From: Methanolobus bombayensis
GTDB lineage: Archaea; Halobacteriota; Methanosarcinia; Methanosarcinales; Methanosarcinaceae
Assembly: GCF_017873415.1 (NCBI RefSeq)
Contig: NZ_JAGGKD010000001.1
Location: 248,001-312,000, forward strand
Reading direction: 5' to 3'
Length of the DNA: 64,000 nt
Within the stretch, counting starts at the first letter, position 1; every line of letters starts with the position of its first letter. The position numbers and the translations under genes were made by a program. Positions 37,790 to 49,613 of this stretch are shown here, one piece after another. The notes under the pieces were generated by a model. The model saw only the letters and a list, made by a program, of their open reading frames with translations. It ran no database searches and was not told where the DNA came from.

Positions 37790-39235
37790 TTATTCTTTAG
37801 TTCTTCTGAGAAGGAATGCCATACCAAGCATTGAAACAAGTGTCATTGCTTCAAATCCTGGAAGACCTGAGCTTTCCTCAGCAGTCTCATCTTCTGCTTC
37901 TTCAGATTCCATTGTTGACTCCTCAGTGGCATCGCTTTCAACAACATTCTCCGTTTCTGCTTCTGTACTTACTGCTTCTTCCTGAACTACTATGGCAAAC
38001 GGTGAGAATCCCGGAGTTGATGCGGTGAAGTAAACATACTCTTCATCCTCGTCCGTAACTTCTGTATCAAGTTCATCCCACTGAGATGTATATCTCATCA
38101 ATCTGACATTAGCAGTATCAATACCATTCTCATTAAGCCATGATTTCTCAACTGCAAAAGAGATCTCAGATTCAGATATTGTGTCAGAGTTTGCCCATCC
38201 GGTCTTTCCGACCCATATGTTCATCTGCCTGTAGATCTTTCCTTCAGGCTCTGTGTTTGCAAAACTGGATTTGTCATGCAATACTTCAATGGTCACATCA
38301 GTATATCCTGCATTGACCTGTGGCATGAATGAAACTCCCTTTATAGGATTTTCTGCTTCAGGGAAATCATATTCAGTTTTTACATCCTTTTGCACATAGA
38401 CTTTTTTCACATCTTTAAAGGCGATGTTCTCGTACTCTTCACCGGAGGCACCACCGCCACCTCCTCCGCCACTGCTACTACTACTTGAGCTTGTTGTGTC
38501 TGTGCTGGAAGAAGGTCCGGTAACTGAAGAGCTTGTTGTTACACTCCCTCCCGGCACTGTTGAAGTGACGGTAAGTGTAAAGCTATTAGTTGATGAAGGG
38601 CTGTCAGCAGTAATTGTCCATGAACCTGAACTTGATGCTGCAGGTGCTATGGTTCCCAGGGTCACGGGATCAGTTCCGCTGCTTAGACTCCATCCACCTG
38701 GCAATGTCAGGTCTACTTTTACATTTGTAGCGTCTGCAGCACCTGTAGAAGCACTGTTAGATACTACATAGCTTAGTATAACATCATCTCCTGCACTGAC
38801 GGACGATACGTCCGTGCTGGAATCAACTGTCAATACCGGTCTGTCCTTTACGGTAATGGCTGATGATGCGGTTTTTGCTGTACTGCTGCCATCATCACCT
38901 GAAGCTGATATTGTAAAAGGCGAAGAACTTGTTCCAGTTGATTCGGCCGTAATGGTCCATGTTACTGATTTGGTACCGTCACTTGTGAACTGTACCTGCT
39001 GGGTTGGACTTGGTATGGTGAATTGATCAGAGTTGTCAGTGAGGGTCACATCCACTGTCAGGGTACCGGATACACTCGCAGCAGTAACAGTTGATGTTAC
39101 AGTAATACTCTCATCTTTCACAACGCTTGTATCGTAGTTGATACTTCCAATGCTAAGGGAAGCTTCAGCAGATGCAGTCGGGATGGTCCCGACTGCTATT
39201 AGCATAGCCATTAAAAATACAGCTAGCTTTTTCAT
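37790..39235 (-). CDS. Surface protein with PGF-pre-PGF domain and PGF-CTERM sorting signal
   Basis: A 481-residue exported protein: signal peptide to about residue 23 (PTASAEA), two or three beta-rich NEW3/CARDB-like domains, a Ser/Gly-rich hinge (SSSSSSSGGGGGGGASGEEY), a PGF-pre-PGF domain (VYVQKDVKTEYDFPEAENP; SWLNENGIDTANVRLMRY; GFSPFAIVV), an acidic Glu-rich linker and a C-terminal LPGFEAMTLV helix ending in LLRRTKE. That tail is the signal cut by an archaeosortase. Its ATG overlaps the stop of the large gene before it (TAATG). The pair is likely co-expressed. Confidence 0.9.
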   Translation of the reverse strand: MKKLAVFLMAMLIAVGTIPTASAEASLSIGSINYDTSVVKDESITVTSTVTAASVSGTLTVDVTLTDNSDQFTIPSPTQQVQFTSDGTKSVTWTITAESTGTSSSPFTISASGDDGSSTAKTASSAITVKDRPVLTVDSSTDVSSVSAGDDVILSYVVSNSASTGAADATNVKVDLTLPGGWSLSSGTDPVTLGTIAPAASSSGSWTITADSPSSTNSFTLTVTSTVPGGSVTTSSSVTGPSSSTDTTSSSSSSSGGGGGGGASGEEYENIAFKDVKKVYVQKDVKTEYDFPEAENPIKGVSFMPQVNAGYTDVTIEVLHDKSSFANTEPEGKIYRQMNIWVGKTGWANSDTISESEISFAVEKSWLNENGIDTANVRLMRYTSQWDELDTEVTDEDEEYVYFTASTPGFSPFAIVVQEEAVSTEAETENVVESDATEESTMESEEAEDETAEESSGLPGFEAMTLVSMLGMAFLLRRTKE

Positions 39236-42200
39236 TAGAATTCACCTCCCATATCGCCTTCATCACCCATGCCTCCACCACTTGCGGGGCCTTCATCTTC
39301 ATACATATCCATCATTTCCTCATCAACTCTGAAGAAATTCATCTTCAGGGCTTCTGATCCTCCTGTTTCTTTTTCGATTGTAACAACAGCTGTGAACTCA
39401 CCAAAGTCATAGTTTATTCCGTCCATGTCATCCGGCAGTATCTCAAGTACACCTTCTCCGTCGACAAGAGTTGTATTGATCATTTCAGAACTCATGTCCC
39501 ATGAGATCGGGAGGTTGTCAGCAGGTCCTTCATCGAAGTATCCTCCAAACATCATTTTCAGTGACTGCAATTCGGCAGTACCGTTTATCGGTGTACCGTC
39601 AAATTCCCTTGCTGTGAGGTATATTGTGATGCTTTCGTTGGAATCGAAGTCATATACCGGTGCAAAGGATTTGAGTGTCGCAGTGTTATCACCTTCGTTA
39701 ATATTGAGGGTTGGGAATGCAAGTGGCCAGTTTTCCATATTTCCTGAACCAATATCCCATGCCTCACCTTCCGACATGTTCATGGTCACAATGGATTCTT
39801 CAAAGAAGTCTGGTATAGAGTCACCATATCCACTCTCATTTGTGTACAGGTCATAGATTGAACTCGTGTCCATATAGTTCTCCCAGTCACGCAATGTCGT
39901 AAGATCTGCATCGTCGTCATATATTGCCTGGGTGGGTATATTGACTCCATTAAAGAGATTGTCTATGAGCAATATATGATAGCGGTCATCAGAAGTGATC
40001 TCACCTACTCCCTCTGGCAGTTCATCCTCATCGAAGTCGTTACCTGCAGTTGCAAGGTCCAGTTCGACATCTTGATCACTGAATTTACCTGCATAGAAAA
40101 CCGGTTCGTCAGCAGTCCATTCCGGTATTGGATACACCTGTGTGGCGCTTCCGTTAAGCAGTATGAACCTGCCTCCCCATTTGGCTACAGATGCTACATA
40201 GTAATTGTTGAATTCACTGATGTTCTCGCCAATGCGATATACATTCGCATCACCGGAATCGCTTGCATTGACCACAAGCACACGATCCTTTGTCGGAATA
40301 TATGATTGAGGCATAAGGTCATACATGGTACCGGATTCATCTTCATAACCGAAGATGTAGTAGTCCTGGCTGTTGAAGTTCACCTGTGTGGCAGCTCCGG
40401 AGTAGGATGTCATTTCACCGTTGGATGTATTGTCATCCATCAAAGTTCCGGCAGCTTCCATTGAAGTAATTATCAACGGATACCTGAGGGTGAGTTCCAC
40501 GCTGTCATTATTGATCGAGCTGACATTGAAATCATATCCTCCCATCCAGTATGTTTCACCGGGAGAGAATGTCTGAGTTTCAGGTCCGGAACCTCCGTCG
40601 TTTCCTGGTATTGTCCACGGCCATCCCTGATATGACATGGCTATGGTTGCTGATGTTCCTTCCGAGCACTCTGTCAGAGTAAAGTTCCACAGGTTTCCGT
40701 AGAATTGATTACTGTCACTCAGGTTCAGGATTATCGTGTCACCTGTGTTGTTAACCTGGATCACAGAGTAGTCCAGTGCAAGGTTTGAACGGCTTGAGTT
40801 GATTGTCGCATTGGTACCGATTGCTCCTGGTTCAAGGGTGGATCCTTCGTCAGTGGAATAGTTGAATGAACCTGTGGTGCTGTTGTAATACCACTCATTG
40901 AAAGGCCAGTTCATATTGTAGAGATCCTGGGATCCCCAATTATAAGCTGCAATACCTCTCTTGAATTCCACTTCGTCTCCATATGCAAGGAGCATATTAT
41001 TTCCTGGCATACCATCGCCGGAATCATCGTCACTCAATTTTATGAGGTCTATCTGGCCCGGTGTTCCAAGTGATCCTGAAACAACGAAGTTACGCAGCTC
41101 AAAGCGAGTGAGTTCCCAGAACATCTCCTCATTTGCAACTGCATACTCATCTCCGATGGTGACATTATAATGTATCATCCATGAGCCTGTTGGTATGCTC
41201 TGTTCGGATGTATTGATCTCAATGAGTGCCAGTCCGCTTGATGTGGTAGTTGTATTGACGTTATTGAGGTTGTACACCAGCTTACTTTCGTCTATAAGGT
41301 AATCCACTTTCACTTCCTTGTTTGTAAGAGGTTCACCTGAAGGTGTTGTTACAAGGAATGGTACCTTTATCACAGAACCATTCTGGAATGTTCCGATATG
41401 CATTCCGTTCCAGCCTTCTTCATATGTGTTGAACTCCAGGTTATATGCAGAGGACTGATACTTGTTACTGAGCAGGTATATCGGATCTCCTCCGAACTGT
41501 ATCGGTTCTCCGGCACTTGCGTCTATATAACCTGCGGAGAAGTTGTATGAATTACTGATAAGTACCTTATCGTACTTTCCGGCAGTAGTTGAATCTGCCA
41601 TGAGTATGATGTAATTATCATCATAGTATTCTCCGTCTCCGTCAAGGTCTATGTTCCTCCATTCTTCGTCATGGAAATTGCTCATGAGGAATTTCCCTGA
41701 CTTGCTCATTGCCATAATGCTATCATTCAGCAGAAGTCCGTTCTTAAGGGTATTCTGCCCTTCAAGTTCGATGGTTCCGTCTGCTTTGATATTGGTGATG
41801 GTCCATGTCCTTCCTGTGTAGTCCGTGAAAGAAGAACCTGCGGATACGTTGAACACCTGTGTGCTTGTGTCGTTGGAAAGGTTACCTACTGGTGGTTGTC
41901 CACTGTTTTCATATTCAATGTATACGGTATCATGGATTGTATCTATTGCAACCATTGTGTAATATGGTACGAAAGTATGGTTCCATGAATCATCGCCCAT
42001 GATCTCATAACTACTTGTAACAGGTGACATATCATCACCGCCGATTACTCTTCCGCTTATCTTTCCGGCACTGATGTTGCCAATACTTGCCAGCTGGCTC
42101 TGTTTTGTGAGTATGTCAGATGTGGCATTGATGGAAGTCGCATTGGTGTAGAACTGTGCGGCATTGATACTGATCTCCATTGGATTTGTCACAGTGACAC

Positions 42201-43572
42201 TTGCCAGTTCAAGCTGGAACCAGAAGTCAGTGTAAACTTCGCTGCCTTCATCATCGGTGACCTTCAGTGTCATCATGTAGGCACCCTGTGACCATCCGCT
42301 GGTATTGACAGATAAGTTGATCTCATTTGGATTTCCTCCAGCTTCTGTAGTAGTGATGCCGCCCATCTGGCTCTTTGTCTTGTAACTTGTCATCCACATG
42401 CCTTCCTGCATCACTTTCTCCACAGTTACGTTTGTGATGTTATGAGGCGTGCTTCCCCACATCTGGTCATCGGATGCTTTTACCGTGACATTGATGAAAC
42501 CGTTTATCGGGAAATCATATTCCCAGTTTGAATCCACCCATGAGACAAAGGCTGTTGTGTGCACCCATGCTCTTCCGACTTCTGTGGAATTGCCGTCAGT
42601 TGCCTCGAATACGAATTCAAAGTTACCACCTCTGGAAAGTCCCGGATATTCGTAATATCCTGTTCCGTTGATAGTTCCGATCTCGATATCCGTGTCATTG
42701 TACATTGTCGGAGGTGTCATCATGTCCCAGTCACCCATTGAAATGATCTTTGTTAGGGTCACATTAACTTCCTTTGAATCAAAACTGCTGTCAAAGGCGT
42801 TCAATGTGAAGTTTATGGGTTGATCAATTCCGACTTCCCACGATGTTGAATACGGATAGAATATGAAGTTACTGACCTCGAACCATCCGTTACCGTAGTC
42901 TGTCACTCCATCTTGGGTGGTCATTTTTATTCTGACGTTGTAGAATCCTGACTTAAGGCTGTTCTCAGGGGAAATTTCCAGTGTAGCTTTACCGTTGGTA
43001 TTTGTAGTAACTGAACTTGTGGCATCTGTCACAGGGATGGTTTCTCCTGTCATTCCGTACTTCACGCTTTCAACTTCAATGGATGCAGTTGATACATTGT
43101 TTCCACTGATATCTTCCACATGTACTGCAAGTTCGATTGTGTCATCCGATCCGAATACCTTAAACATGTTCGAATCTTCATCAAACACCGGTTTTGCTTT
43201 GATATTATAGAGTTTCTCATCGAACCAGGCATCGCCCATGACCATCTTTGGAGATCCGTCTACTGTTGCATTGACCCAGAATTTAACGTAGTGGAATCCA
43301 AGGTAGGAATCTGTAACATTGAATTTGAGAACTTTCTTGTCACCAACAAAAGGAACGTTCACAGTATCGAGTACCGGATCCTCCATGTATTCCGTAACTA
43401 CTTCAGAAGCACTGTCACTCCATACTTCTACAAGTCCTGCCTCATGTATGTCAGCTGCAGGTATCTCGGATCCTGTTGAAGGATCGAATGCAGTTATCAT
43501 AATTCTTGCAGTGGAATTAGGAGCTACTGTAGGACTGAACCATCCGTTCTTATTGACAGGTTCTCCATGCAC
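39235..43572 (-). pseudogene. Very large surface protein, 5' end missing
   Basis: The open frame gives 1,445 residues from a GTG at 43572 and is open to 43599. It is rich in Asn, Thr, Ser, Asp and NxS/T sites, with repeated beta-sandwich segments of the 'yxlxxxATDxxG' type (KVTDDEGSEVYTDFWF; VEDISGNNVSTASIEVES) and a late DLDGDGEYYDDNY segment; it ends in a Gly/Met/Glu-rich tail (GPASGGGMGDEGDMGGEF). There is no signal peptide: the frame begins within a domain (GEPVNKNGWFSPTV) directly inside the tail of an MBL-fold gene. Such a protein needs export, so the gene seems to have lost its 5' part. AGGA nine bases before the GTG might allow translation. Confidence 0.7.
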
Positions 43573-44230
43573 GAAAAGATCCTGTACTGTGATACTCCTT
43601 CATCAGGAGTGCATAGTTGTATTTCTTTTCATATCCCATTGTGCTGCTTCTTTTTGATGCCATTGCCCTTCCGCAAAGAGATCCTGCTCCGTGCGCCGGG
43701 TATATTTCGCAGAATTCAGGCAGATTCAGTAATTTTTCATGGAGTGTGTCATATAATTTTGAAGCAAGCTCTTCGGCTCTTCCGGGGAAGAGGTCCGGTC
43801 TTCCCACATCTCCTACAAACATTGTGTCGCCACAGAAAACTGCAACCGGTTCTTTTCCTCTTGTTATGTCTGTAACTATGTAGGATATGTGTTCAGGTGT
43901 ATGGCCCGGAGTTTCTATAATGTTGAGTTTTATGTCCTCGATCTCAATGGAATCTCCTTCTGAAAGAGGAACATGTTCAAAATCACAATTCGCTTTTTCA
44001 GGTGCGTATATAGGTGCACCTGTTCGTTTTGCAAGGTCCATGTGTCCGGAAATAAAATCTGCATGAAGGTGTGTTTCAAGGATATGTGTGATCTTAATTC
44101 CCATGTCTCTTGTAATATCAAGATATATGTCAATATCTCTTCTTGGATCAATTATGGCACAGGTTTTGTCGCCCGCAAGTATGTATGAACTATGTGCTAT
44201 TTTTTCAGTGAATATCTGTTGTATTAGCAT
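43550..44230 (-). CDS. MBL-fold sulfur enzyme (persulfide dioxygenase/rhodanese type), 3' truncated
   Basis: From ATG 44230 (MLIQQIFTEKIAHSS) the product has 226 residues. Motifs are ETHLHADFISGH (metal site), IETPGHTPEHISY, FCGDTMFVGDVGRPDLF and YPAHGAGSLCGRAM, those of ETHE1-like persulfide dioxygenase/MBL-rhodanese proteins. The family block SKRSSTMGYEKKYNYAL is present, but then the sequence turns to MKEYHSTGSFRAWRTCQ and stops. Relatives normally continue for over 200 residues with a linker and rhodanese domain. The 3' end overlaps the headless surface gene, so both genes are cut at one junction. Confidence 0.75.
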   Translation of the reverse strand: MLIQQIFTEKIAHSSYILAGDKTCAIIDPRRDIDIYLDITRDMGIKITHILETHLHADFISGHMDLAKRTGAPIYAPEKANCDFEHVPLSEGDSIEIEDIKLNIIETPGHTPEHISYIVTDITRGKEPVAVFCGDTMFVGDVGRPDLFPGRAEELASKLYDTLHEKLLNLPEFCEIYPAHGAGSLCGRAMASKRSSTMGYEKKYNYALLMKEYHSTGSFRAWRTCQ

Positions 44231-44326
44231 TTCTAACCCCACTATTTATTCGGTATTTTAGTTTTAGTATTTTATGCTGTATCCGGTTTTATCTCTCTAT
44301 TTGTTCTTTTGTCTATATATCATTTG

Positions 44327-44373
44327 TTTGGTATATATGCAAAAATATGGTCTATTTTTGACTAAAATTCAAA
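44327..44373. promoter_or_regulatory. Two TTTG-N9-CAAA sites upstream of the DtxR-type gene
   Basis: TTTGGTATATATGCAAA (44327-44343) and TTTGACTAAAATTCAAA (44357-44373) are 30 bases apart, centre to centre. The first overlaps a TATA-like stretch. Similar sites lie before znuA. Confidence 0.55.
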
Positions 44374-44407
44374 AAGCATATATATCCCTTCTATATTATG
44401 GAGTAGC

Positions 44408-44830
44408 ATGCAGGAAATTACAGGTTTGGAGCTCTCTCCCAAAAAAGTGGAATATCTAAAGTTCCTTCTTAAGAAAGGCGACCTGGTAAAGACTACGGAT
44501 ATATCCACGGAATTAAATGTTGATCCTTCAACTTCTACAAAGACGATTAATGATCTTTCAGAATCAGGTTATGTGGATCACATTCCGTATCGTGGTGTGC
44601 GTCTTACTGAAATTGGTCGGGAATTTGCAGAATTCTTTGTTAACCGTCATAACATCCTGAGTCTGATGTTGAGTCATTATGGCCTTTCTTCCGATGATGC
44701 CTGTATTGAAGTATCACGCTTTGAAGCATTTGTTTCAAAGGATGCTATTGATACTATATGTGGTGCAATGGGTCACCCGACTGTAAGTGTTTGTGGGAAG
44801 ATTAAACATTCTTCGTGTAATTTACATTGA
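44408..44830 (+). CDS. DtxR/MntR-family metal-dependent regulator
   Basis: A 140-residue repressor-type protein. A winged helix at about residues 10-70 (KKVEYLKFLLKKGDLVKTTD; STSTKTINDLSESGYVDHIPYRG) is followed by the metal-binding and dimer domain (IEVSRFEAFVSKDAIDTICGAMGHP). The C-terminus is short, CGKIKHSSCNLH, with extra Cys and His that may take part in metal binding. No SH3-like domain. It lies just before znuABC on the same strand and shares operator-like repeats with it, which makes zinc or manganese control of that operon likely. Confidence 0.85.
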   Translation: MQEITGLELSPKKVEYLKFLLKKGDLVKTTDISTELNVDPSTSTKTINDLSESGYVDHIPYRGVRLTEIGREFAEFFVNRHNILSLMLSHYGLSSDDACIEVSRFEAFVSKDAIDTICGAMGHPTVSVCGKIKHSSCNLH

Positions 44831-44881
44831 TTTTTTTTATTATGGTATTGTGTTGATGTAAGTCGAATTATCTGGTAATAA

Positions 44882-44918
44882 TTTGGAATATATGCAAATA
44901 ATTTGGTTATAATACAAA
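44882..44918. promoter_or_regulatory. Two tandem TTTG-N9-CAAA sites upstream of znuA
   Basis: TTTGGAATATATGCAAA (44882-44898) and TTTGGTTATAATACAAA (44902-44918) lie 20 bases apart, i.e. two helical turns, and cover TATA-like words 40-75 bases before the znuA ATG. The first differs at only one of 17 bases from the site at 44327 in the DtxR-gene promoter. Confidence 0.6.
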
Positions 44919-44956
44919 AATAACGGTAAATCTATATCATTAAGTGGTGTGTTGCT

Positions 44957-45976: not shown

Positions 45977-46726
45977 ATGGAAAATGTGATTGATGTTAAG
46001 GATGTATGGGTAAGTTATGATGGTGTCAGGGTTCTTGAGTCAGTGAACCTGACTGTTAAGGATAAAGATTTCCTGGCTATTATAGGTCCCAATGGTGGAG
46101 GCAAAAGCACTCTTCTAAAGGTCATCCTTGGATTGATCAAACCTGATAAAGGTTCTGTAACTTTATTGGGTGGCAGACCCACAAAAACAAGAAAAGATGT
46201 GGGTTATGTCCCCCAATATCATTCTTCTAATCTTGATTTTCCCGTAACTGTATGGGATGTTGTCCTGATGGGCCGTCTGAGTCACAAAGGTCCTCTCCAG
46301 CGATATAATGATGAAGATCGCAATGCAGCCCTTGAAGCTCTTAAAACTGTAGGTATGCTTGATTTTAAAGACAGGCAGATAGGTGAGCTTTCAGGAGGGC
46401 AGAAACAGAGGGTTTTCATTGCCCGTTCCCTTGTTACGAAACCGAAACTGTTAATACTGGATGAACCGTCCACTGGTATAGATTCCAGAATGCAGAAGGA
46501 GTTCTATGAGCTTCTCAATAAGCTAAAATCTGAGATTGCTATTGTAATGGTTACTCATGATATCAGTGCAGTCTCGGTCTATGTTGATAAAATAGGCTGT
46601 CTGAACAGGAAGTTCCATTATCACGATGACAAAGAAATTAGTCCGCATGATCTGGAAGTATCATATCAGTGCCCGGTTGAATTAATTGCACATGGTGTGC
46701 CACACAGGGTATTGAAAGAGCACTGA
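45977..46726 (+). CDS. znuC: Zinc/manganese ABC transporter ATP-binding protein
   Basis: A 249-residue ATPase: Walker A GPNGGGKSTLLK, DVGYVPQYHSSNLDFPV (Q-loop, family-typical), LSGGQKQRVFIARSL, Walker B LLILDEPSTGID, and the H-loop VTHDISAV. The C-terminus CLNRKFHYHDDKEISP is typical of the metal importer class. ATG follows the TAA of znuA directly. Confidence 0.94.
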   Translation: MENVIDVKDVWVSYDGVRVLESVNLTVKDKDFLAIIGPNGGGKSTLLKVILGLIKPDKGSVTLLGGRPTKTRKDVGYVPQYHSSNLDFPVTVWDVVLMGRLSHKGPLQRYNDEDRNAALEALKTVGMLDFKDRQIGELSGGQKQRVFIARSLVTKPKLLILDEPSTGIDSRMQKEFYELLNKLKSEIAIVMVTHDISAVSVYVDKIGCLNRKFHYHDDKEISPHDLEVSYQCPVELIAHGVPHRVLKEH

Positions 46727-46736
46727 GGTTAAAACT

Positions 46737-47552
46737 ATGCTTGAAGTACTCCAGTATGATTTCATGAGGAATGCAATTCTAGCTGCTATCCTTGCAAGTA
46801 TTGCTTGTGGTATAATAGGTGTCTATGTTGTAGTTAAAAAAATAGTTTTCATCAGTGGTGGTATTACTCACGCATCATTTGGTGGCATTGGTCTTGGTTA
46901 CTATCTTGGAATCAATCCGCTATTTGGACTTATTCCTTTCAGTCTTTTCTCTGCAATAATAATGGGTCTTGTCAGCAAACGTGCAAAAGTAGCTGAAGAC
47001 ACTGCAATAGGTATATTATGGTCACTGGGAATGGCCCTTGGTATTATTCTTATTTACTGGACTCCCGGCTATGCTCCAGATCTTATGACCTATCTTTTTG
47101 GTAATATCCTGACAGTTCCGATGTCTGATATATATCTGATGCTGGGACTGGATCTTGTAATTATACTTGTTGTCTATGCCTATTACAAGCATTTCATGGC
47201 ACTTTGTTTTGATGAGGAATTCACCACAGTATCCGGATTATCAGCAGAAAAGCTTTATTTGCTTTTACTTTGTCTTATCGCACTTACCATAGTACTTCTG
47301 ATCAAGGTAGTCGGAATCATCCTTATCATTGCACTTCTTACCATGCCTGCATCTCTTAGCAGGCATTACACCAACAATCTTGGAAAAATGATGTATCTTG
47401 CAATTATATTTGGTATTTTTTTCAGTCTGGCTGGCCTGTTCCTGTCATACTTCTTTGATGCACCTTCAGGTGCCACAATAATTCTGTCAATGTCAACAGT
47501 TTATATACTTCATTTCCTGTATGACGGCCTTAAACCAAAAATAGCATCATGA
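46737..47552 (+). CDS. znuB: Zinc/manganese ABC transporter permease
   Basis: A 271-residue ABC-3 family permease with about eight membrane helices. Family motifs are VVKKIVFISGGITHASFGGIGLGYYLG and VVGIILIIALLTMPASLSRHYTNN. It starts 10 bases after the ATPase gene and completes the importer. It is convergent with tfuA. Confidence 0.94.
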   Translation: MLEVLQYDFMRNAILAAILASIACGIIGVYVVVKKIVFISGGITHASFGGIGLGYYLGINPLFGLIPFSLFSAIIMGLVSKRAKVAEDTAIGILWSLGMALGIILIYWTPGYAPDLMTYLFGNILTVPMSDIYLMLGLDLVIILVVYAYYKHFMALCFDEEFTTVSGLSAEKLYLLLLCLIALTIVLLIKVVGIILIIALLTMPASLSRHYTNNLGKMMYLAIIFGIFFSLAGLFLSYFFDAPSGATIILSMSTVYILHFLYDGLKPKIAS

Positions 47553-47577: not shown

Positions 47578-48237
47578 TCATTCAATCATCTTTTTTATTT
47601 TTTCAAGAACAAGAATAGCATCCTCTCTTTTTATATCACATTCATTCTCTTTGCAGAATTGAAGGAGGCTTTCAGCCTTCTTTCCTGATATTATTCCTTC
47701 CTTTTCTGCTGTTCTTGAAATTCCAAAATAGCTTCTTTCCGTGTAATGTGTGTTTTTGGCAAGTTGGGTTATAAGCCTGCACTCATCGTCGTCTATTATG
47801 CCCGCATCCCGGCTAGCTTTCAACGTTTCCCTGATATTGACCATGGGACTGGAAACAGGTTCGAAAGTATCGGGGTTTGTGGCAACAGCAACCTCATCAT
47901 CATCCTCGATAACTTCGTCCCTGTACCATTCATATATTGTTCCGACACCTTCCATTCCATGAATATCAAGTTCTGATGCCCTCAGAGCTCCCATACTACA
48001 GCCGCCAACAACAGTAACTCCCTGCTTCATCACTTTTATTATCTCTTTGTGGGCTGCAGCTGCTCTGCTGAAAAAGATGCCATCTATGATGCCTATTATT
48101 TTGTATCCTTTACTGGCAGCTTTTTCAATATCTCCTCTGGATATTGGTGGCCAGTATGTTGCATCAAGGATCTGTGCTGAATCTTCATGACTGATGCTTG
48201 TGCCGGCAAATACAAGGATCTCTGATTTTGTATTCAT
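47578..48237 (-). CDS. tfuA: TfuA-related McrA-glycine thioamidation protein
   Basis: A 219-residue TfuA domain protein: VFAGTSISHEDSAQIL, YWPPISRGDIEKAASKG, GIIDGIFFSRAAAAHKEI and GCSMGALRASEL. In Methanosarcina acetivorans tfuA and ycaO are both needed for the thioglycine in the alpha subunit of methyl-coenzyme M reductase; TfuA is thought to deliver sulfide. The ATG overlaps the ycaO stop (ATGA). Length is normal. Confidence 0.93.
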   Translation of the reverse strand: MNTKSEILVFAGTSISHEDSAQILDATYWPPISRGDIEKAASKGYKIIGIIDGIFFSRAAAAHKEIIKVMKQGVTVVGGCSMGALRASELDIHGMEGVGTIYEWYRDEVIEDDDEVAVATNPDTFEPVSSPMVNIRETLKASRDAGIIDDDECRLITQLAKNTHYTERSYFGISRTAEKEGIISGKKAESLLQFCKENECDIKREDAILVLEKIKKMIE

Positions 48238-49511
48238 CTTCTACGTCCTTTTCTCCAGGGTCTTTCCTGTGGAGTCATTTTCTTTCTGGGACCGGACTTT
48301 GCCCTTTTACCGACTCTTTCCCTGTCAAGCGTGTACATTTCAAAACCCGGGATTATCACTCTTACAACCGGAACAGCCACGTTTTCACGAGAAAGATCCA
48401 CTACAACAGCTGAATCTGTAACTTTTTTGAGCTGCCCGGCAATCACATCAATGCTTTCTGCAGGTGTGGTCTTTGACAGGTCCTTCAGGTCTTTCATGGA
48501 TATTTGTTCTCCATCTTCGTACCAGTATTTATTCATACGCTTGATCCTGTCATATCCTATTTCCCTGACAAATTTCTCACGTTCGGTGTCTTCTCTGGCA
48601 CCATGTATCTGTACGACCCTTGACTGTGCAGCTTCTGTGAGAGCTCTTCTTACTGCAATTTCAGGTTTAAGATGTGCGCCTGCTCCCATTACAAGAAGTG
48701 CAGCATCTTTGAGCCTTACATCGTCTGTTACCGCAACAACCGTTGTGATCTCTGTGTCATGGTTGAGTGCCCAGAGTTTAACAGCAACTTCGTTATCTGT
48801 GAATTTGCGAAGGATTTCATAATTTTCCCCGTCTTCTTCTGTAAGGATGATTTCCTTTCCGGGATTTCTGCCAAATTCTGCAGTACTGAGTGCATCTCTT
48901 TCAATCACTTCCAGGAGACCATGAAAAATCGCTTCCTCTATGGTATTTCCGGCGGCAAGTCCGTTTGTGTTACTCCTGAAGAGTTTCAGTGTTCTTCCTG
49001 GTTCGTCGTAAGGGTGGTATACTGAGTTTGCCGGTACAAATGTTTCTTCATTTTTCAGAAGATCCCATGCATGTATCCATTCGATAAGGGCCTGTGGGTC
49101 ATAGTTTTCCGCAATAAGCAGGGAAGGTGGATTTATTGCGTTTCCATTTCCGGAAAGATTGTCATAACTATCAATTGTGTGAATTGATGAGATGTTTTCC
49201 TTTACGTTCTCATTCAGTCCCTGTCTTTCAGCAAGACAACGTTCAAAACCTTCCATCATGGCTGAAATTCTTGCCTGCGTTTCAGTGCTTCCTTTTCCGG
49301 AGTATACTGAGATAGCACCCTCTGCAGCACTTGGTCTTATAGTTGAGAATACGGGTATGCCAAGTCTGTCAAGATCAGTGATACTTGCTATCCTGGTAAC
49401 ACCTATGCTTTTGAGCTTATCTTTTGTTCTTTCAAGTGTGTTATTTTCATCAAGGACTCGTTGCGTACCCTCTATAAAGCTTAGTGATCTATCAATGTTT
49501 ATCTCTGGCAT
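48234..49511 (-). CDS. ycaO: YcaO-type ATP-dependent thioamidation enzyme
   Basis: YcaO activates the peptide carbonyl by ATP-dependent phosphorylation; with TfuA it makes the thioglycine of McrA. I prefer ATG 49511 (MPEINIDRSLSF), giving 425 residues; ATG 49532 adds seven. A TATA-like AAAGATATAAT about 27 bases before 49511 would make the shorter form leaderless. Motifs: SAAEGAISVYSGKG, ARISAMMEGFERCLAE, EEAIFHGLLEVIERDA (Mg-ATP acidic residues) and VRVIIPGFEMY. The C-terminus is Pro/Arg-rich (TPQERPWRKGRRR), as in methanogen YcaO. Confidence 0.93.
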   Translation of the reverse strand: MPEINIDRSLSFIEGTQRVLDENNTLERTKDKLKSIGVTRIASITDLDRLGIPVFSTIRPSAAEGAISVYSGKGSTETQARISAMMEGFERCLAERQGLNENVKENISSIHTIDSYDNLSGNGNAINPPSLLIAENYDPQALIEWIHAWDLLKNEETFVPANSVYHPYDEPGRTLKLFRSNTNGLAAGNTIEEAIFHGLLEVIERDALSTAEFGRNPGKEIILTEEDGENYEILRKFTDNEVAVKLWALNHDTEITTVVAVTDDVRLKDAALLVMGAGAHLKPEIAVRRALTEAAQSRVVQIHGAREDTEREKFVREIGYDRIKRMNKYWYEDGEQISMKDLKDLSKTTPAESIDVIAGQLKKVTDSAVVVDLSRENVAVPVVRVIIPGFEMYTLDRERVGKRAKSGPRKKMTPQERPWRKGRRR

Positions 49512-49613
49512 GATTAGCGAGAGTCTCTGCATATATTATATCTTTTACGACAAGTGAGCTTTCTAAGTAATAATTATATATTACAGGGTGAGTCTTTTAT
49601 AAGGGGTTATAAT

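Follow-up and report, generated by a model that had tools for sequence, protein, structure and literature searches.

Our analysis suggests that the DtxR-family regulator encoded at 44408 has its operators in four 17-bp dyads of the window (the whole 64-kb stretch of DNA that was analysed), and that it would act as a zinc-loaded repressor of its own gene and of the importer genes znuACB; we put the probability of this reading, which is built on sequence comparison, at about 85%. The earlier note had proposed such an operator, with the regulator controlling its own gene and the importer under metal control, and the proposal is supported by phylogenetic footprinting, by the fixed spacing of the sites and by a scan with a trained profile. 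Moreover, the dyad stays with znuA where the importer is unlinked from the regulator, and is absent where the regulator is absent.

We infer that the regulator binds the dyads with zinc as its effector and represses by blocking TBP/TFB. When zinc is ample, a metal-loaded dimer would occupy the 17-bp dyad TTTGG-N7-CCAAA and, with the sites 30 or 20 bp apart, two dimers per promoter would sit on nearly the same face of the DNA. The bound dimers would exclude TBP/TFB from the BRE/TATA elements that overlap or abut the dyads, and this exclusion would shut down both the regulator gene and znuACB. When zinc is scarce, the repressor would be released, allowing expression of the importer, of the regulator and of a His-rich COG0523 metallochaperone.

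Four dyads in two promoters

All four 17-base sites, which had been picked out by eye at 44327, 44357, 44882 and 44902, were found in the sequence (Table 1), with the sites at 44327 and 44882 identical at 16 of 17 bases and with start-to-start spacings of 30 bp in the regulator promoter and 20 bp in the znuA promoter, just as described. These spacings had also been taken for whole helical turns, which is only approximately true (2.9 and 1.9 turns, respectively, for a turn of 10.5 bp), but both distances are conserved. The dyads do overlap TATA-like words, as had been claimed: regulator dyad 2 enters a BRE/TATA-like element about 25 bp 5' of the regulator ATG, and the znuA pair spans AT-rich core-promoter candidates. 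The weakest of the four sites is regulator dyad 2, with a profile score of 7.2 bits.

Table 1. Positions of the proposed operator dyads, the promoter element and the genes within the window.
Feature	Position	Strand	Sequence, domain or remark
Operator dyad 1, regulator promoter	44327..44343	+	TTTGGTATATATGCAAA
Operator dyad 2, regulator promoter	44357..44373	+	TTTGACTAAAATTCAAA; start 30 bp downstream of dyad 1
BRE/TATA-like element, regulator gene	44370..44385	+	CAAAAAGCATATATAT; overlaps dyad 2; kept in relatives; putative promoter role
ZntR-type DtxR-family regulator, 140 aa	44408..44830	+	PF01325 and PF02742 above cut-off
Operator dyad 1, znuA promoter	44882..44898	+	TTTGGAATATATGCAAA
Operator dyad 2, znuA promoter	44902..44918	+	TTTGGTTATAATACAAA; start 20 bp downstream of dyad 1
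znuA, zinc-type substrate-binding lipoprotein with His-rich loop	44957..45976	+	PF01297
znuC, importer ABC ATPase	45977..46726	+	PF00005
znuB, importer ABC-3 permease	46737..47552	+	PF00950

The short word TTTG-N9-CAAA alone is not diagnostic, occurring 6 times in the 64-kb window (2.96 expected) and 147 times in the 3.12-Mb genome, as compared with 80 times for the reversed pattern; what is diagnostic is the clustering of the sites. When the two intergenic regions were shuffled with their dinucleotide counts preserved, they yielded on average 0.002 and 0.007 sites per shuffle, and two sites appeared in none of 20,000 such shuffles for either promoter. Four dyads within 592 bp spanning two promoters are not a product of chance. 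Moreover, genome matches to TTTGGTATATATGCAAA with at most one mismatch are confined to these two promoters.

The genes flanking this cluster lie on the minus strand. A metallo-beta-lactamase-fold hydrolase gene (43550-44242) encodes a protein whose alignment with relatives ends at residue 216 and whose final residues extend into the beginning of a surface-protein-like ORF of 1445 aa (39235-43572), in which no N-terminal signal peptide was seen; this looks like a rearrangement or an assembly junction near 43,595. Downstream of znuB, and on the opposite strand to it (47578-49532), a TfuA-related McrA-glycine thioamidation gene lies beside a larger ORF of YcaO-like appearance.

The regulator, its predicted targets and the effector metal

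The regulator has the DtxR/MntR-family architecture of an N-terminal winged helix and a metal-binding/dimerisation domain, its Pfam matches being of the DtxR type only, with no Fur-family domain among them, and its structural model (pLDDT 90.8) finds its best PDB match in the manganese repressor DR2539 (TM-score 0.85). A DtxR-like match is present in all 112 family genomes searched, and most of them have a close ortholog of this regulator. Over residues 3-137 it is 65% identical to the ortholog at 30,277 in the relative G074, which we take to be M. acetivorans, and we assign it as the Methanolobus ortholog of ZntR (MA0022).

At the same time, the canonical regulatory metal ligands of MntR/DtxR are not intact in the region of MntR E99, E102 and H103, where the regulator has S103, E106 and A107. 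In the alignment with B. subtilis MntR, S103 and A107 occupy the places of E99 and H103, and two ligands survive, H77 as H81 and E102 as E106. Across 97 orthologs, Ser/Ala and Ala/Ser/Gly prevail at the positions of S103 and A107, respectively, whereas H81, C99, E101, E106, C118, C129 and H134 are invariant (97/97) and H123 (96/97) and C137 (94/97) are nearly so. We make no claim on the ligands corresponding to MntR D8/E11, because the register of the N-terminal part differs between phmmer and MAFFT. We would give even odds to the idea that ZntR is a DtxR fold that has lost its ancestral Mn/Fe regulatory site and gained a new Cys/His zinc site in its stead, acting on tandem operators whose spacing is genus-specific (20 versus 40 bp, each step being roughly two turns). 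Candidate zinc residues of such a site, as a hypothesis, would be C99, C118, H123, C129 and H134, together with H81 and E106; if true, ZntR would sense metal through an arrangement of its own among DtxR-family proteins.

The importer itself appears to be of the zinc type, the nearest solved relative of its ZnuA being the zinc-uptake protein 1pq4 (E=5e-67), and the genome has no PF01297 gene besides znuA. A further dyad (G000:C3:147345-147361) lies 84 bp upstream of a gene for a His-rich COG0523 GTPase. This gene, which carries long His-rich stretches, is the first of two adjacent COG0523 genes (G000:C3:145308-147277, minus strand; L182, L190). Its dyad is present in 12 of 13 orthologs, this one included, and in none of seven paralogs, and the gene is the predicted third target of the regulon. 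Since several bases separate this dyad from the BRE position downstream of it, simple blocking of TBP/TFB is less obvious at this promoter. In another genome, the pair of COG0523 genes has a second copy of the regulator (G059:C2:129020-129433; L123), 82% identical, about 10 kb away.

Zinc is the most likely effector metal, favoured by the zinc-type ZnuA, by the His-rich COG0523 target and by the altered metal residues of the regulator, and backed as well by the published ZntR prediction (PMC2770081). An operator of the same regulator with a different effector (manganese, iron or some other metal), as for MntR, IdeR and DtxR, would agree with the fold and with the closest solved relatives, which are Mn/Fe regulators, and with the ability of ZnuA-family importers to carry manganese or iron. 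Such an effector is nevertheless unlikely, given the loss of MntR E99 and H103 (S103 and A107 here), the Cys/His residues invariant in the 97 orthologs, the better match of ZnuA to zinc-uptake proteins, and the co-targeting of COG0523, which is typical of zinc regulons (PMC2770081).

Conservation in relatives and genome-wide scans

Footprinting covered 97 distinct regulator promoters (ten of them from Methanoregula-type genomes) and 70 znuA promoters, with a dyad called at 9 or more of 10 matches to TTTGG...CCAAA in a 16- or 17-bp form. By this measure the dyad is present in 72 of the 97 regulator promoters, the one studied here included (1.9 expected from shuffles), and in 63 of the 70 znuA promoters (2.5 expected), although these counts are not independent events, since the sequences are mutually related. 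Between genera, divergence is too large to align unconstrained promoter DNA. Sites of 17 bp with at least 8 matches numbered 132 and 105 in the two promoter sets, as compared with 12.5 and 9.9 after shuffling; no excess over shuffles was seen in either set at a dyad length of 14 bp, and the matches counted at lengths of 16, 17 and 18 bp overlap one another. Spacing is conserved as well: znuA promoters contain 27 pairs spaced by exactly 20 bp and another 20 pairs spaced by exactly 40 bp (the shuffled total over all spacings from 17 to 60 bp is 0.6), regulator promoters contain 23 pairs at exactly 30 bp, and in Methanolobus relatives regulator dyads 1 and 2 lie at about -81 and about -51 from the start codon.

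In the alignment of Methanolobus-like genomes, symmetric TTGG/CCAA arms are nearly invariant while the centre is variable, and the operator is therefore written TTTGG-N7-CCAAA; the form given in the earlier note, TTTG-N9-CAAA, is present in the sequence but is superseded by this sharper consensus. A TATA-like box directly follows the right arm CCAAA in many relatives, and the position before the TATA box is where TFB would touch the BRE. In Methanosarcina (L085-L098, L139) the dyad beside the regulator TATA box is TTTG-N8-CAAA (for example, TTTGGTATATGGCAAA), one base shorter than the 17-bp znuA dyads of the same genomes. In Methanoregula and other Methanomicrobiales (L099-L108), a second methanogen order, the regulator has a single dyad before its own gene, and in some of these genomes znuA adjoins the regulator and also bears the dyad.

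Regulator promoters of genus g10 (L135, L144, L148, L151) contain no good dyad, while znuA, located elsewhere in those genomes, mostly keeps one. Autoregulation has apparently been lost in this genus with control of the target kept, and thus would not be universal in the family. In some genera znuA is unlinked from the regulator, and the dyad still precedes most of these znuA genes. Conversely, none of six readable znuA upstream regions from family genomes without a close regulator ortholog contains the dyad, the absence of the regulator being only probable there because the assemblies are drafts.

These distributions also bear on whether the dyads might serve another regulator, with the 44408 gene a mere neighbour. 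The motif alone does not identify its binding protein, and a second DtxR-type protein of this genome (contig C22) keeps the classical Cys-x-x-Glu-His motif intact. Yet the dyad precedes the 44408-type gene in most of the family and in Methanoregula, and znuA lacks it in genomes that have other DtxR-like proteins and no close 44408 ortholog, which makes a different binding protein quite improbable.

A profile (R1) trained on 68 sites, all from other genomes, ranked 44325-44345 first, 44880-44900 second and 44901-44920 seventh in the genome, the ranks being those among the 150 of 1,906 first-look candidates that were fully scored. TTTGG-N7-CCAAA with one mismatch shows no genome-wide excess (82 versus 83 in the control), and regulon membership must therefore rest on conservation and not on counts. 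Among other high-scoring sites, C2:322683 and C1:169253 are not claimed as targets because they fall within coding sequence, nor is C17:36232, which has no convincing promoter context. One more hit, C2:171049, with the site ATTGGATTATATCCAAA (G000:C2:171051-171067; L241), lies about 70 bp 5' of a short ORF whose product looks like the N-terminal portion of a corrinoid-binding methyltransferase subunit; it is a possible further target, and we do not claim it as one. Finally, that the dyads are chance AT-rich words or low-complexity sequence, an origin ruled out by the shuffles and the footprinting, or a conserved BRE/TATA core promoter without a dedicated regulator, is hardly credible, for although the loose word is frequent and the right arm of regulator dyad 2 merges with the A-rich BRE/TATA-like stretch, the shuffles, the conserved spacing, the symmetric arms around a variable centre and the two top-ranking sites all stand against it.

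Comparison with known systems

Palindromic motifs for archaeal DtxR-family regulons (FetR, MntR and ZntR) were reportedly described by Leyn and Rodionov in 2015, with the ZntR class said to control uptake of the TroA/ZIP type. Our literature search found no experimental test of the ZntR system. Among bacterial proteins, MntR (DR2539 and B. subtilis MntR) and DtxR/IdeR share with the 44408 regulator the winged-helix and metal-binding/dimerisation fold and, as proposed here, the repression of importers through palindromes, but Ser and Ala stand in the places of MntR E99 and H103 (DtxR C102 and H106), and a different Cys/His set is invariant. Bacterial Zur, of the Fur family, has a like role in zinc control of znuABC and COG0523, but its protein family and operator are unrelated to those described here, and the regulator would do a Zur-like job without being a Zur.

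The closest known system is ZntR (MA0022) of Methanosarcina, which Haas et al. 2009 predicted to control znuABC, the predicted targets being znuABC, its own gene and a COG0523 gene (PMC2770081). The same paper names the methanol:CoM methyltransferases of methanogens as zinc enzymes, hence the importance of zinc (PMC2770081). Methanolobus has an orthologous DtxR-like regulator and the same predicted targets as in that paper (PMC2770081), and sites are present upstream of znuABC, of the regulator's own gene and of the COG0523 gene. On the other hand, znuA pairs are spaced by 20 bp in Methanolobus and by 40 bp in Methanosarcina (the motif being compared through the genomes), and the Methanolobus regulator is preceded by two dyads at a distance of 30 bp, unlike Methanosarcina ZntR. 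The G074 genome contains four perfect TTTGG-N7-CCAAA words, two of which lie upstream of znuA, while no recognisable zinc gene adjoins the other two (3.65 and 5.38 Mb).

The Methanolobus case is a member of this already predicted ZntR kind, well conserved and fairly ordinary, and as the core idea was published as a prediction in 2009, the gain is one of detail and confidence and not a new system. What began as a motif seen by eye becomes a well-supported predicted zinc regulon for Methanolobus and the rest of its family, with a sharp consensus, a conserved spacing and a third target, and the regulator emerges as an archaeal DtxR-type protein whose metal site may have been rewired.
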